Below, piece by piece: positions 45,351 to 50,006 of a stretch of DNA of 53,263 nucleotides. Both the position numbers and the translations under genes were made by a program. How positions within the stretch are numbered: the first letter of the stretch is position 1; every line of letters starts with the position of its first letter. The notes beneath the pieces were generated by a model. That model saw nothing but the letters and a program-made list of their open reading frames with translations. It had not been told where the DNA came from and searched no databases. Origin of the DNA: Planctomycetota bacterium (GTDB lineage Bacteria > Planctomycetota > Phycisphaerae > Phycisphaerales > SM1A02); contig QWPT01000015.1 in assembly GCA_003671075.1 (NCBI GenBank), positions 4,906-58,168 of the forward strand, in the 5' to 3' direction.

Positions 45351-47330
45351 CTAGCGCAGGTAATCGAGGAGGCTCATGTTCACTGCCTTGGCGGCGCCGG
45401 CTAGACCAGCCTGCAGCTGTTGCTGAAGGGTGGCGAACTGCGTTGCCGCCTTGGTGAAGTCGAGGTCCTGGATGCTTGATCGCAGCGCCATGTCCTGAAT
45501 CCCAAGATCTTCTTCGCGGGTGGTCGACTCAGCGACGCGCCGCGATCGGACTCCGACATCTGCACGCGCCTCAGTGGCGCGGGAGACATCCGATTCCAAC
45601 TTGCTCGTTGCAAACTCAATGCCACGCTCGTCGTTGGCCCGCAGAGCATCTCGCAGAGCCATGAGGTGCGAAAAGACGCTATCGACGGCAACAGTTGCGC
45701 GATCGGTTCCGATCAAACTTGCCGCGTTTGAACTGCCGGCGATCCCGAGGTCGGTCGCGGTGGCGCTGTTGTTGATGTCGACCACGCTGGTGGTGGTGCC
45801 GATGGTGGAGTCCGTCAGTTCGATGCCGTTGCCAGACGAGGTGAGTCCGGCGGTGAACTCAGCAGGCGTGATGCCCGCGGTGGCGGCGGCGGCGTTGATC
45901 TTGTCCAGGACATCCTGAACGGTCGAGGCGCCGTTGATGTCGACTTCGAACGCGCGACCGTCCTTGACGGTGACGCGGAAATCGCGATCGGCGGCGGGGT
46001 CGGGTAGGCCGGTGAGCGGGTCAATCGCGCCGGCAGCTTGGTGCACGCCGCGGCCCTGGTTGAAGTCGGCCAGAAGGGTCTGCGTCGAAAACGACCTGAT
46101 TCCCAGCTCGGATGCGGTAGTTCCGCCAACCTCCTCGATCGACATCGAGGTGCCCGAAAGCTCGTTGCGAACATTGAACCGACTTCCGTCCTCGGAAATC
46201 TCCACGCGAGCTCCGATTCCGGCGGCAGCCACGGCGTTCTGGAAATCTTGAACCGTCGTCAGCGCCCCGAGGTCGATACGACGGGTCTGTCCACCGTTGC
46301 GAATAGCAATCTGACCGAGCGGCAGAGTCATTGCGCTGAGCGAATCAAGCCGCGTGAGTTCGGTGATCTTCGGATGGAGGTCAGCACCCGTAGTCGAAAC
46401 GCCGCCGGGATAGGTTCCCGCGAGGCCGAGGTCGCCGGCGGTGGTCGAGGAATTCGAGTCGCGGATCACGATGCTGACGCCCGCGGACGGGGTCACTGCG
46501 ATTCGGTCGCCAGTCGCGGCGTCGATGCTGACAACGGCGCCCGGGTCGGTCGCTTGGACGGCGGCGTTGAGCGCGTCGAGGACATCGCCAACCGAATCGG
46601 CCTGCGAGAGATCGACCTGCGAGATCGTGCCGTTGACATCGATTTCAATGACGCCCGCGTGTACGCCGCGACCGTTGGCGCCGCGAAGTTCGCTCAGCCG
46701 AGTCGCGGGGAGCATCGAGGGGTCGAGATCGCGCTCGCCCTGAACGCGGCCAGAAAGCGCACCAAAGGCCTGCTCGGCCGAGATGGTGACGCGCACATCC
46801 GACGCCAAACCGAGGTCGCCGAGCATGCCCTCGCCGCTGCCGATGTAGCGAATGCCGTCGAGCATGGGGGCAAACGGCTCGGCGGAGTGGCGGTCGCCCC
46901 CGAAGAAGTGGATGCCGCGCAGGTCGCGGTTGGCGACCGACAGCAGCGAATTCAGCATCGAGTCGATCACGGTCGCCTGATTGCGACGAGTTGCGTCATC
47001 GCTGCCGACGCCAATCTGGGACAGACCAATACCGCGGGCCTCCTGCAGCAGATCGCTCACATCGCCCAGCGCGTTGTCGAGCGAGTTGAGGGTGGCGTCA
47101 GCCTGAGAAAGATTGCGAACCCGTTGGTCGCGGCGCTCGATGGCGTCGTCGAGCACGCTGACCGTCGACGAACCAATGGCGTTCTCAGACGGTCTGGTGA
47201 ACTCCTTGCCCGCCGCAAGGCGAACCTGCAGCTGAAGGAACTCACGGTTGGTCTTCTGAATGCCGGCAAGCGCAATTCTCGACGCCAAAGCGTTCGGTAC
47301 GCGCGTGAGGTTGGCAGGTATTGCGCCCAT
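45351..47330 (-). CDS. flgL: Flagellar hook-filament junction protein FlgL, enlarged
   Basis: The protein is 659 aa from the ATG at 47330 (MGAIPANLTRVPNALASRIALAGIQKTNREFLQLQVRLAAGKEFTRPSENAIG); the longer upstream frame runs through a tandem repeat. The N- and C-terminal D0/D1 parts (VLDDAIERRDQRVRNLSQADATLNSLDNAL and FTKAATQFATLQQQLQAGLAGA) match FlgL. Usual length is about 300 aa; the extra 350 residues hold several flagellin hook-IN repeats (IDVNGTISQVDLSQADSVGDVLDALNAA, VDINGASTVQDVLDKINAA). It links the hook-associated protein FlgK to the filament. Three unrelated genes separate it from flgK. Confidence 0.92.
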   Translation of the reverse strand: MGAIPANLTRVPNALASRIALAGIQKTNREFLQLQVRLAAGKEFTRPSENAIGSSTVSVLDDAIERRDQRVRNLSQADATLNSLDNALGDVSDLLQEARGIGLSQIGVGSDDATRRNQATVIDSMLNSLLSVANRDLRGIHFFGGDRHSAEPFAPMLDGIRYIGSGEGMLGDLGLASDVRVTISAEQAFGALSGRVQGERDLDPSMLPATRLSELRGANGRGVHAGVIEIDVNGTISQVDLSQADSVGDVLDALNAAVQATDPGAVVSIDAATGDRIAVTPSAGVSIVIRDSNSSTTAGDLGLAGTYPGGVSTTGADLHPKITELTRLDSLSAMTLPLGQIAIRNGGQTRRIDLGALTTVQDFQNAVAAAGIGARVEISEDGSRFNVRNELSGTSMSIEEVGGTTASELGIRSFSTQTLLADFNQGRGVHQAAGAIDPLTGLPDPAADRDFRVTVKDGRAFEVDINGASTVQDVLDKINAAAATAGITPAEFTAGLTSSGNGIELTDSTIGTTTSVVDINNSATATDLGIAGSSNAASLIGTDRATVAVDSVFSHLMALRDALRANDERGIEFATSKLESDVSRATEARADVGVRSRRVAESTTREEDLGIQDMALRSSIQDLDFTKAATQFATLQQQLQAGLAGAAKAVNMSLLDYLR

Positions 47331-47410: not shown

Positions 47411-47453
47411 TGCGAGATGGCTGCGAGATGGCTGCGAGATGGCTGCGAGATGG
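47411..47453. repeat. Tandem repeat, four 11-bp units, in the flgL leader
   Basis: Four copies of TGCGAGATGGC (the last lacks one base) lie 80-123 bases before the flgL start codon. The unit length is not a multiple of three, so it would break a reading frame, in agreement with an untranslated leader. Confidence 0.92.
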
Positions 47454-47649
47454 AGCGGTTCTCGACCTCACTCTGCCGCCGATTGGCCGCTGCGGGCACC
47501 GCGCGAACAGGCTTGGTCCTCGGAACCATGTCCCCGTAATCGTTTTGCGCCGACATTGGGGCGAAATTCGACTGAATGAGCGCATGGGAAAGGACTTCTG
47601 TCGCACTTCCTAGGGAGTCCTTCCGGGCTTGCTGCGAAAACAGCACAAC

Positions 47650-47924
47650 TGGTTTGAGTTCAGAGTTGAGAGTGTGTGACTTACGACCTCGTAGGCCGAT
47701 CGGGGCAACAACCGGTCTGCGAGGGGTTTGAAGCCTGCTTTGCAAATCTTTGGCAGCTGCGAGTGGTGGGCTGCGAGAGCATCTGCAAACTACGCGACTT
47801 CTTCCGGGGGTAAGTCACCAGTCTGTCGCCGACGCGCGAAATCGTCCCGCGCGTCATAGACAGAGCTTCGACTCGACACTTGAATATCAACCACCGGCGA
47901 TGCATCGCCGGTGGTTGTTTTTTT
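47650..47924 (+). ncRNA. Candidate structured RNA with intrinsic terminator
   Basis: The segment has no gene but several nested complementary arms. A 9-bp closing stem joins GTGACTTAC (47676-47684) with GTAAGTCAC (47810-47818). Inside it are a hairpin CCTCGTAG (47687-47694) with CTGCGAGG (47717-47724, one G-U pair) and a hairpin TTTGCA (47739-47744) with TGCAAA (47784-47789). A separate hairpin GACGCGCG/CGCGCGTC (47831-47855) is extended by CTGTC/GACAG. The terminator at 47888 ends it. No plus-strand gene precedes it, so the terminator must serve this RNA or a leader of the gene at 48061. It is not recognisable as RNase P, tmRNA or SRP RNA; a 6S-like RNA or a riboswitch remains possible. Confidence 0.5.
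47888..47924 (+). terminator. Strong intrinsic terminator without an upstream protein gene
   Basis: A perfect 30-bp palindrome (arms CAACCACCGGCGATG and complement) is followed by seven T on the plus strand. The nearest upstream gene, flgL, runs the other way, so the terminator implies a plus-strand transcript from the gene-free region. Confidence 0.85.
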
Positions 47925-48060
47925 AAGATCGTGGTTGCGATCGCAGATCCCCAATGGGCACGGGCTCACAAAATCACAACCGGCTCCGAGAACAGCAAAA
48001 TGACGGTGCAGACTCGGAAATTCAGCGCAGGCGCCCCCCGCCGTGGTGTATCAAACCTGC

Positions 48061-49113
48061 ATGACCAACAGGCCAAGACTTTGCATCCTCACGGCGCTTT
48101 CCATCCCGGCGCTTTTCATCACAGGAAGCGCCGCCGCCCAGACCACCGATGTCCTGCTCATTCCCGACTCGGGTCCGATCGCGGGTCGAGTCTGGGCGCT
48201 GAGCCCGATCGATGGCAGCGTCATCACCAACTCGTTTATCCCTGGCGACACCCGGCTCACGCAGCCGATTCAAATCATCGACTCAGGTCGCGGGACGCTG
48301 CTGGTGACCGACGAAGTCGCGAAATCGGTGTTTGAGTATTCGGCCAGAGGCAACTACCTCGCCACCATCGCGTCGGGGTTGGAAGGTTCCTATGGAATCT
48401 GCCTGCGCGATGGCAACGCCTATGTCACTTCGGGCTTCAGCGCCGGCGTAGGCGGCAAGATCTATCGCATCGCGCTCGACGGTTCTGCGCCCGTTGTGTT
48501 CAGCGATTGGATGGGCATCGGCGATCCGCGCGGCATCGTGCCTTATGGCGCGGGCTTTCTTGTGGGCAATTCGATCGATGACGATCTTGAGGTCGTCGGC
48601 TCAACGGGTTCGGTGAACCCTGTTCCCTTCTACAACTCGGACGGCATCATCAGCATCAACTTCCCGCAGCAGATCGTTGATATCGGCAACGGGAACCTGA
48701 TGGTCGCTGGCTTCTCCGCGCCTTGGGGCGTGTACTTCTTTGACTCTGGCGCGTTCGTGTATGCGGCCTATCGGGCGCCCGAGGTGTACCTGAGTCCGCG
48801 CGGCACCCGCATGCTGGAGAATGGCGAAATCCTCTACACCGGTGGAACGCGCATCGATAGGTTCAGCACCAAGACCTATGCGAACACCAACATCGTGAAC
48901 CAAGCGGGCGCGAGCTTTCGCTGGGTCACGCGCTATACGCCGCCGACGCCATGCCCTGCTGATGTCAATGGCGACCGCGATGTGAACGCGAACGATCTCG
49001 CCACGATCCTCAGCGGGTGGGGCACGACCGATGCATCGGCCGACATCAATGGCGACGGAACGGTGTCCGCGCTTGATCTGGCGATCCTGCTGGGCAACTG
49101 GGGCCCGTGCTGA
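48061..49113 (+). CDS. Secreted protein with C-terminal dockerin-like repeat
   Basis: The 350-aa protein starts at ATG 48061, giving a signal peptide (LCILTALSIPALFITGSAAA, cleavage near AAAQ). The middle (about 30-290) looks like a beta-propeller of NHL/SMP-30-like strands (LLVTDEVAKSVFEYSARGNYLATI, YVTSGFSAGVGGKIYRIALDG). The last 60 residues hold two Ca-binding dockerin-like repeats: DVNGDRDVNANDLATILSGWG and DINGDGTVSALDLAILLGNWG (each about 21-24 aa). In planctomycetes such tails are common on secreted proteins without cellulosomes. It lies between the structured RNA and a PEP-CTERM-like gene. Confidence 0.85.
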   Translation: MTNRPRLCILTALSIPALFITGSAAAQTTDVLLIPDSGPIAGRVWALSPIDGSVITNSFIPGDTRLTQPIQIIDSGRGTLLVTDEVAKSVFEYSARGNYLATIASGLEGSYGICLRDGNAYVTSGFSAGVGGKIYRIALDGSAPVVFSDWMGIGDPRGIVPYGAGFLVGNSIDDDLEVVGSTGSVNPVPFYNSDGIISINFPQQIVDIGNGNLMVAGFSAPWGVYFFDSGAFVYAAYRAPEVYLSPRGTRMLENGEILYTGGTRIDRFSTKTYANTNIVNQAGASFRWVTRYTPPTPCPADVNGDRDVNANDLATILSGWGTTDASADINGDGTVSALDLAILLGNWGPC

Positions 49114-49141: not shown

Positions 49142-49170
49142 GCCGGGCCGACGCATTGCGTCGGCCCGGC
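49142..49170. terminator. Bidirectional terminator
   Basis: A 13-bp stem (GCCGGGCCGACGC and complement) has a 3-base loop between the convergent genes at 48061 and 49249. T-rich flanks lie on both sides (TGTGTTTC plus; GTTTTAG minus). Confidence 0.8.
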
Positions 49171-49248: not shown

Positions 49249-49941
49249 TTAGCGGCGACGACGATGAGCCGCGAGGCCCGCGAGGCCGAGAAGCGCAATC
49301 GCTCCTGGAGCCGGAATCGCACCCGAGCTGATCGTCACATTGTCCACACGGCCCGAACCGGCCGCAGCGGTCGTGACCAGCGAACGGAAACGGAAGATGA
49401 CCTGGGAAGCGTTGTCCGCAGCGGCCACCGAGAGGCTCGTCGTATACATCGACTGATAGACCGTGGTGGACCATGTTGCGGGCGCGCCGCCGCCGCCAGA
49501 CTGAAGCACCGTGTAGCTGGCCAGAATGGTGGAGAAATTGGCGCCGCCATCGGTGCTCATGATGAGCTCAAAGCTCGAAGGGCCAGTGGCGCTGCGGGTC
49601 TGATCCCACGACAGGTAGATGTCGGAGTAGCCGAGGGTCGAGCAGCGCGCCTCGTAGTAGTCGCCGATCGACCAGTTGTTGCTGGAGAAACCGTAGGTCG
49701 AGCCGTTGCCCGAGGGCGAGGTGTAGGTCGCGGCGGCAAGTGCGTGAACCGACTTGAGCTCGGAACCCGCGCTCTGAACGCCAAGGTCGCCAGCGCCGAC
49801 GGTGTAGGTGGTGCCGGTCGGGACATTGCCCGCGCCAGTTGGGAAGGCGGTGGTGATCGACCAGCCGCAAACGATTTCAGCCGAGGCGCTGGACACGAGG
49901 GCTACAGCGACAGCCATGCAGGACATGCTTTTCAGGGACAT
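49249..49941 (-). CDS. Secreted PEP-CTERM-like protein
   Basis: The protein is 230 aa from the ATG at 49941 (GGAG seven bases upstream; ATG 49944 is an alternative). The signal peptide has its core in MAVAVALVSSASA. The mature domain is Ser/Thr/Gly-rich and beta-type, with a jelly-roll-like pattern (YSDIYLSWDQTRSATGPSSFELIMSTDGG). The C-terminus is a tripartite tail PAPGAIALLGLAGLAAHRRRR, like that of the gene at the left edge of the window, so both should be substrates of the same exosortase-type sorting. No exosortase gene is in the window. Function unknown. Confidence 0.85.
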   Translation of the reverse strand: MSLKSMSCMAVAVALVSSASAEIVCGWSITTAFPTGAGNVPTGTTYTVGAGDLGVQSAGSELKSVHALAAATYTSPSGNGSTYGFSSNNWSIGDYYEARCSTLGYSDIYLSWDQTRSATGPSSFELIMSTDGGANFSTILASYTVLQSGGGGAPATWSTTVYQSMYTTSLSVAAADNASQVIFRFRSLVTTAAAGSGRVDNVTISSGAIPAPGAIALLGLAGLAAHRRRR

Positions 49942-50006
49942 CATCTTTCTCCGCGGCAAAGGCCGCTTGTGCTGCCATCAAAGGGTGGATGGTCAGCGGA
50001 ACCAGA

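Follow-up and report, generated by a model that had tools for sequence, protein, structure and literature searches.

Between a flgL-type gene and a dockerin-tailed protein gene, in a window of 53,263 nucleotides (the whole stretch of DNA that was analysed) from a planctomycete of the SM1A02 lineage, positions 47650-47924 of the plus strand raise the question of whether a structured RNA directed away from flgL is encoded there, and what such an RNA would do. The name flgL is used here by position and kind of gene, not by a family call. In a table of one review, 8 distinct sRNAs are given for the Planctomycetes-Verrucomicrobia-Chlamydiae group versus 345 for Proteobacteria (PMC9029176). The stretch beside the flagellar gene is probably a new non-coding RNA; what it encodes is a genuine structured RNA that is missing from Rfam and, as far as our searches reach, from every other genus. 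As an RNA supported by covariation, located at a fixed site and present or absent among the species of one genus, it gives transcript mapping and knockout a defined object to work on, and it exemplifies lineage-specific structured RNAs that diverge while their loops stay fixed.

In regard to the architecture, the sequence forms an outer helix around a sub-domain and a further hairpin, with the terminator placed after them, P0[P2[P3,P4],P5] (Table 1). Read from 5′ to 3′, the order is the bipartite box, CTTCC, P1, P1b, P0, P2 (holding P3, P4 and the five-G run), P5, the end of P0 and the terminator. The first-pass annotation had described nested arms closing a domain with two internal hairpins, then a further hairpin and a perfect terminator, and both sequence and fold place all of these parts where it had put them. 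The interval from flgL to the terminator is, as had also been claimed, without a likely gene on the plus strand; the GC-rich RNA contains many open frames, none of which is alike across four orthologs (by eye). Of the borders set at 47650 and 47924 the 3′ end was retained, while the 5′ border proved too short, as conservation begins at about 47582-47600: two extra hairpins and conserved sequence are located at approximately 47600-47644, and the bipartite box starts at 47582. The RNA is probably about 310-325 nt long and ends at about 47924. The outer part of P4 (47739-47744 with 47784-47789) is predicted from the fold of the studied sequence alone. The loops that are constant in four species are the 14-nt P3 loop (NUCGGGGCAACAAC), AGUGGUG in P4, the GGGGG run and CGUCC in P5, and the most diverged relative (G012, see below) keeps AGUGGUG and CGUCC. 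When stems vary and loops stay constant, this usually means that the loops touch something.

Table 1. Elements of the RNA locus and its neighbours (positions in the window; G000 is the genome studied here, G008, G012, G013 and G014 are relatives of the same genus bearing the RNA).
Feature	Position	Strand	Remarks
flgL-type flagellin-family gene	45351-47330	-	divergent neighbour; Pfam Flagellin_N and Flagellin_C
Bipartite box GCATGG-N12-GTCGCA	47582-47605	+	possible promoter; spacing equal in G000, G013, G008 and G012
GTCGCACTTCC block	47600-47610	+	same letters in four orthologs and in the second copy of G013; first UCC site, or promoter part
P1 hairpin GAGTCC-TTCC-GGGCTT	47615-47630	+	second UCC site in loop; weaker pairing in G008 (by eye)
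P1b hairpin	47631-47644	+	stem letters differ among orthologs, pairing kept
P0 outer helix, 5′ arm	47653-47674	+	partner 47864-47883
P2 closing stem, 5′ arm GTGACTTAC	47676-47684	+	partner 47810-47818; encloses two internal hairpins
P3 hairpin	47687-47724	+	conserved 14-nt loop 47699-47712, ATCGGGGCAACAAC
P4 stem	47739-47789	+	inner hairpin 47753-47774, loop GAGTGGTG
Five-G run	47806-47810	+	precedes the 3′ arm of P2; seen in four orthologs
P2 closing stem, 3′ arm GTAAGTCAC	47810-47818	+	landmark-anchored test and covariation count
P5 two-part hairpin TGTC...GACGCGCG / CGCGCGTC...GACA	47823-47863	+	loop AAATCGTCC
Third UCC site, P5 loop	47839-47847	+	within loop AAATCGTCC
P0 outer helix, 3′ arm	47864-47883	+	partner 47653-47674
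Intrinsic terminator	47888-47924	+	perfect 13-bp stem and seven T
Dockerin-tailed protein gene	48061-49113	+	Pfam Dockerin_1; downstream neighbour, outside the RNA unit

BLAST of 61 genomes returned only fragments in relatives, and orthologs were reached by way of flgL, which is present in 14 of the 16 genus genomes; the DNA upstream of it was read at all 14 loci. Clear forms of the RNA occur in G013, G008 and G014 and a strongly diverged form in G012, always upstream of flgL, with unchanged position and divergent orientation. It was thereby found at five of the 14 loci read, the other nine being without such sequence, among them G015, whose contig stops 921 nt upstream of flgL. A hairpin with a T-rich tail occupies the same place on the plus strand in G013, G008, G014 and G012, and also follows a second copy in G013 (by eye); a script requiring a clean T run detected the terminator in G000 and in both G013 copies, and not in G008, where the T-tract is broken. 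The form in G012 scores 6.3 bits (E 0.39 in 35.6 kb) with R1, the covariance model built from the four clear members, which is below five chance matches of the same search, and when the complete genome was searched (E up to 1) R1 did not pick the RNA locus of G012. Its right place, the same bipartite box, the AGUGGUG loop, the CGUCC loop and a terminator hairpin speak for this form, and by place and motifs it was called an ortholog. The second G013 copy, diverged and in tandem about 500 nt downstream (L030, approximately 921-1250; G013 contig C1 from 81520), shares the GTCGCACTTCC block and has a hairpin whose loop is 14 nt long, a UGUC-GACGC...GCGUC-GACA hairpin and a terminator of its own. 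It scores 15.3 bits (E 2.1e-5 in 1.1 kb) with R1, the best chance match there, on the other strand, reaching 11.0 bits. Judged from these sequences, the RNA appears to have duplicated and diverged already in one species.

Folding energy is only moderate evidence for such a structure, and it is the covariation of the orthologs that is decisive. The minimum free energy of 47660-47924, to which the terminator contributes part, is -118.4 kcal/mol (z = -5.0, a value not reached by any of 200 shuffles). For the 147-nt inner domain taken by itself z is -2.65, with 3 of 200 shuffles equally low or lower, and the five orthologs minus the terminator range from z = -1.4 to -3.5 (60 shuffles each). Covariation was counted on four orthologs, a small set, in a MAFFT alignment made from sequence only and not fitted to the structure, the tested structure being P2-P5. 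In this alignment 88.7% of the cells are paired versus 78.9% in shuffles, and both sides have changed at 15 of the 38 pairs versus 6.2 in shuffles, values that none of 500 shuffles reach, with the caveat that related sequences can exceed shuffles without any structure, least so on measures that count pairs or types. When the partners were shifted by 1-3 columns as a control, pairing fell to 31-45%. By our own reading these figures are low rather than high, because the alignment misplaces P2 by one column in two species and P4 in one. Double-sided changes occur at 6 of the 12 pairs of P3, at 2 of 5 in the inner part of P4, and at 2 of 13 in P5, which gives little covariation because it is mostly invariant.

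Tests of single helices are in line with this count. With P3 anchored on its loop, 12, 12, 9 and 10 of the 12 flanking positions pair in the four orthologs. For the 3′ arm of P2, three of four species have the best partner in their own 5′ region, G013 being a near tie (-10.8 with its own, -10.9 with the G014 arm), and for P0 the own 3′ arm is the best in four of five genomes, the exception being G000, where the G012 arm pairs better (-19.0 versus -14.0). In P1b, 24 of 24 cells are paired in six copies versus a mean of 10.0 after swapping arms between copies; arms were hand-chosen in this swap test, which also bears on the inner part of P4 and was given less weight. The covariation that the first-pass annotation had named as its check is thus present. 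At one site, four species share a conserved fold whose stems covary and whose loops are constant, a fifth has a diverged form of it, and together with the lack of an Rfam family this upholds the description of the locus as a new structured RNA.

Beyond its own four members, which it matches by construction (E < 1e-45), R1 found nothing comparable in 181 family, 400 order and 392 phylum genomes, the order and phylum sets being samples and all three runs using strict filters. The best other matches had E-values of 8.6e-4 (family), 7.8e-5 (order) and 1.5e-5 (phylum), and a looser run on the genus alone gave 8.6e-4 as the best other, apart from antisense matches of the RNA locus itself. Weak matches were rejected when they fell inside open frames of 522-806 codons (L228-L230, L232-L235, of which L233 also contains GGCAACAAC somewhere in its 3 kb) or of more than 700 codons (L303), or on an rpiB-like frame and terminator (L047). 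A GC-rich hairpin in a distant genome of the phylum (G428, L304, 1501-1525), with a 9-nt loop AACACGTCC equal to that of P5 in G014, is probably due to chance. The loop pattern GGGGCAACAACCG-N35..65-AGTGGTG occurs in 32 stretches of GTDB 220 contigs, and a looser pattern in 71 of viral contigs; among the 100 of these 103 loci scored with R1 (L197-L199 were left out), only L101, L107 and L115 were strong (at least 158.8 bits), and these are the clear relatives G013, G014 and G008 again. Plasmid and phage records gave no match to the RNA. At the flgL loci of other genera, none of 16 genomes read (of 58 with a match) has a clean terminator within 1.5 kb upstream, and the three motifs gave a single match there, of one motif, at L246; R1 covered these genomes in its family run. 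The confinement to one genus holds at the sensitivity of R1; equally diverged relatives elsewhere would be missed, because R1 misses the G012 locus in the whole genome. In a flgL tree the RNA-bearing species are near each other and not resolved as one clade. Two changes are needed for the RNA label, and 39% of bootstrap trees need only one, which makes a single origin possible rather than demonstrated.

As for known classes, the claim that the RNA matches none of them agrees with Rfam 15, which gave no match in the whole window. With E allowed up to 10, the stretch 47500-48060 gave three matches, far below their gathering scores and all spanning the terminator. ARAGORN found no tRNA or tmRNA gene in the window, and a CsrA sponge of the CsrB/RsmZ type was rejected, as ANGGA occurs 0-1 times per RNA on the plus strand of five RNAs and is not conserved. 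A literature search over titles, abstract openings and selected passages found no paper describing this RNA. Termite-flg and flg-Rhizobiales, leader motifs of flagellar genes, resemble it in lying beside flagellar genes, while the RNA described here is directed away from flgL, has its own terminator and lacks an Rfam match. GOLLD, ROOL and OLE are longer than the present RNA, which differs from them also in its restriction to one genus at the reach of the searches and in matching no Rfam family. What it shares with these ornate bacterial RNAs is being conserved, rich in stems and of unknown role (PMC12286853). The Rhodopirellula-1 motif, listed for Proteobacteria and Planctomycetes without an Rfam accession in a passage of PMC2864571, is another candidate structured RNA of the phylum.

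Transcription from a promoter of its own, at about 47582-47605, is what we infer for the RNA. No sigma-70 promoter was recognised near it. The box is GCAGGG in its left half in G014, and only the right half is seen in the second G013 copy (by eye). The exact box occurs 21 times among the 16 genus genomes. Four of these occurrences belong to the RNA locus (G000, G013, G008 and G012) and 17 are elsewhere, within open frames of 132-1007 codons; chance open frames (237-1008 codons) cover the four RNA-locus occurrences as well. As a marker of further RNAs the GTCGCACTTCC block was unproductive, with 80 sites in 16 genomes, below a backward control in most of them. Among 44 sites checked, three had a clean terminator within 600 nt, all of them RNA copies (G000 and both of G013); the script did not detect the terminator of the G008 copy, and the 40 other sites had no clean terminator and lay inside open frames of at least 154 codons. 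Sites of the RNA copies are likewise in open frames (190-1003 codons). The GTCGCACTTCC block fits well as a promoter, because it persists in the second G013 copy and because G012 keeps GTCGCA and not CTTCC.

Several readings that deny an independent RNA of the plus strand have to be weighed. Chance in GC-rich sequence, or a repeat acting at the DNA level without RNA function, would suit the energies of the inner domain and of the five orthologs without their terminators, yet is highly improbable in view of the compensatory changes at 15 of 38 pairs and the duplex tests of P2, P3 and P0. The minus strand, as a long leader of flgL, is only slightly less improbable: the region is upstream of flgL, this strand carries GGAAG twice in the 5′ block (by eye), and in G012 it has the relatively better fold (z -4.05 versus -3.47). 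However, in the other four orthologs it is the plus strand that has the relatively better fold (60 shuffles each), the T-rich tails after the terminator hairpins are on the plus strand (by eye), the non-Watson-Crick pairs of hand-chosen arms are eight G-U and no A-C on the plus strand, and the second G013 copy has its 5′ block about 500 nt further from flgL. The first-pass annotation had also offered a ligand-controlled leader of the dockerin gene, a riboswitch or attenuator, and to this we give an equally small chance. The gene is on the same strand, with 136 nt from the end of the terminator to its ATG, it follows the RNA at four of the five RNA-bearing loci, and G000 and G008 have similar terminator stems (by eye). 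In G013, on the other hand, the RNA is kept and nothing dockerin-like is seen over the 3.7 kb upstream of flgL. What follows there is another gene and one like flgK (names by eye); the interval from flgL to the next flagellar gene shows no dockerin gene. Furthermore, eight flgL loci carry a dockerin gene close to flgL without the RNA, no conserved antiterminator was noticed by eye, and relatives lacking the RNA have a promoter-like sequence right before the ATG (by eye). The RNA is independent of the dockerin gene. The suggested 6S-like RNA is the least probable of all, even if one clear copy in most carriers, an own terminator, the poor coverage of the phylum by Rfam and the intergenic, structured character would agree with a 6S RNA of this lineage. 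The shape of 6S RNA is a rod with a central bubble and the architecture found here is branched. No match to the Rfam 6S family (RF00013) was obtained, and 11 of the 16 genomes, including G008, G012, G013 and G014, have 6S candidates elsewhere that stay below threshold (24.5-31 bits, cut-off 46.4); G000 has no such candidate elsewhere, and for this genome they are therefore no proof against a 6S RNA.

This leaves a trans-acting RNA as the best fit among the three earlier suggestions, with action in trans itself as the conjectural part, and an independent trans-acting RNA is the most likely reading. In its full form, a free-standing, intrinsically terminated non-coding RNA with its own promoter that acts in trans, with pairing to ribosome-binding sites through UCC as the weaker part, we put it at a probability of roughly 0.4. 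Transcription would start at about 47600-47615 and end at the terminator, and the RNA would take the covariation-supported fold P0[P2[P3,P4],P5], in which three UCC sites are predicted to stay open in four species and two in G012. Such redundant unpaired sites, namely the 5′ CACUUCC, UUCC in the P1 loop and CGUCC in the P5 loop, the loops being presented by covarying stems, could then, more tentatively, pair with G-rich ribosome-binding sites and block translation; the putative targets may or may not be flagellar genes. The predicted mean unpaired probability is 0.56-1.0 for the three sites in G000, G013, G008 and G014, and 0.73 and 1.0 for the two in G012, UCC being a short motif with other partly open sites in single species. 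The sites could also be engaged by the RNA's own G-rich loops. The first one may lie inside the promoter, and if the GTCGCACTTCC block is the promoter, this site drops out. In PMC4132741, redundant UCCC sites of LhrC are described as binding the Shine-Dalgarno region, and a UCCC motif is reported there for RNAIII, RsaE, SprD and FsrA. With its own terminator and several C/U-rich sites predicted to be open, in loops as well as in single strands, our RNA would resemble LhrC of Listeria and RNAIII of Staphylococcus in kind, and the diverged second copy in G013 recalls the multicopy LhrC. It differs from them in that the motif is UCC and not UCCC, the fold is larger and branched with long constant loops, and the host is a GC-rich planctomycete.

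Almost as likely as this pairing is a free-standing structured RNA that binds a protein or adopts a fixed three-dimensional fold, NUCGGGGCAACAAC, AGUGGUG and GGGGG being tertiary contacts or protein sites; as a whole this reading is plausible at rather less than even odds. Long constant loops of mixed sequence, exceeding the needs of a simple antisense RNA, argue for it, as do several stems in fixed order with covariation in P0, P2, P3 and P4. A core protein partner is harder to reconcile with the rapid divergence seen in G012 and in the second G013 copy and with an RNA at only 5 of 14 flgL loci read, and the unconserved ANGGA sites argue against a role through CsrA. Returning to the trans-acting RNA, it could, in a broader and more doubtful version, represent an undescribed family of one planctomycete sub-lineage, in which a compact branched fold, with constant loops and several redundant anti-ribosome-binding-site loops, would serve as a post-transcriptional regulator, possibly of motility; such a family would have been born or kept inside the flagellar cluster, and duplicated and diverged in one species.

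Some further observations concern the surroundings of the RNA. Upstream of flgL, a tandem repeat of GCGAGATGGCT occupies 47412-47453, and different tandem repeats are found at the same site in some genus members, with GGATCGAGGACTT units in G006 and units of about 21 nt in G008 (by eye), as if repeats keep arising there. At four loci of relatives without the RNA (L034, L036, L037 and L039), TTG...GATAAT or similar stands a few bases before the dockerin ATG (by eye), and because of this position the dockerin mRNA of these relatives may be nearly leaderless. The sub-threshold 6S candidates mentioned above (L224-L227 and those of other genomes) are possibly the 6S RNA of the lineage, missed by the Rfam cut-off. 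Finally, a perfect 13-bp inverted repeat at 49142-49170, a possible two-way terminator, separates the dockerin gene from a convergent open frame on the minus strand (49249-49959), which matches no Pfam family and has a PEP-CTERM-like tail (by eye).
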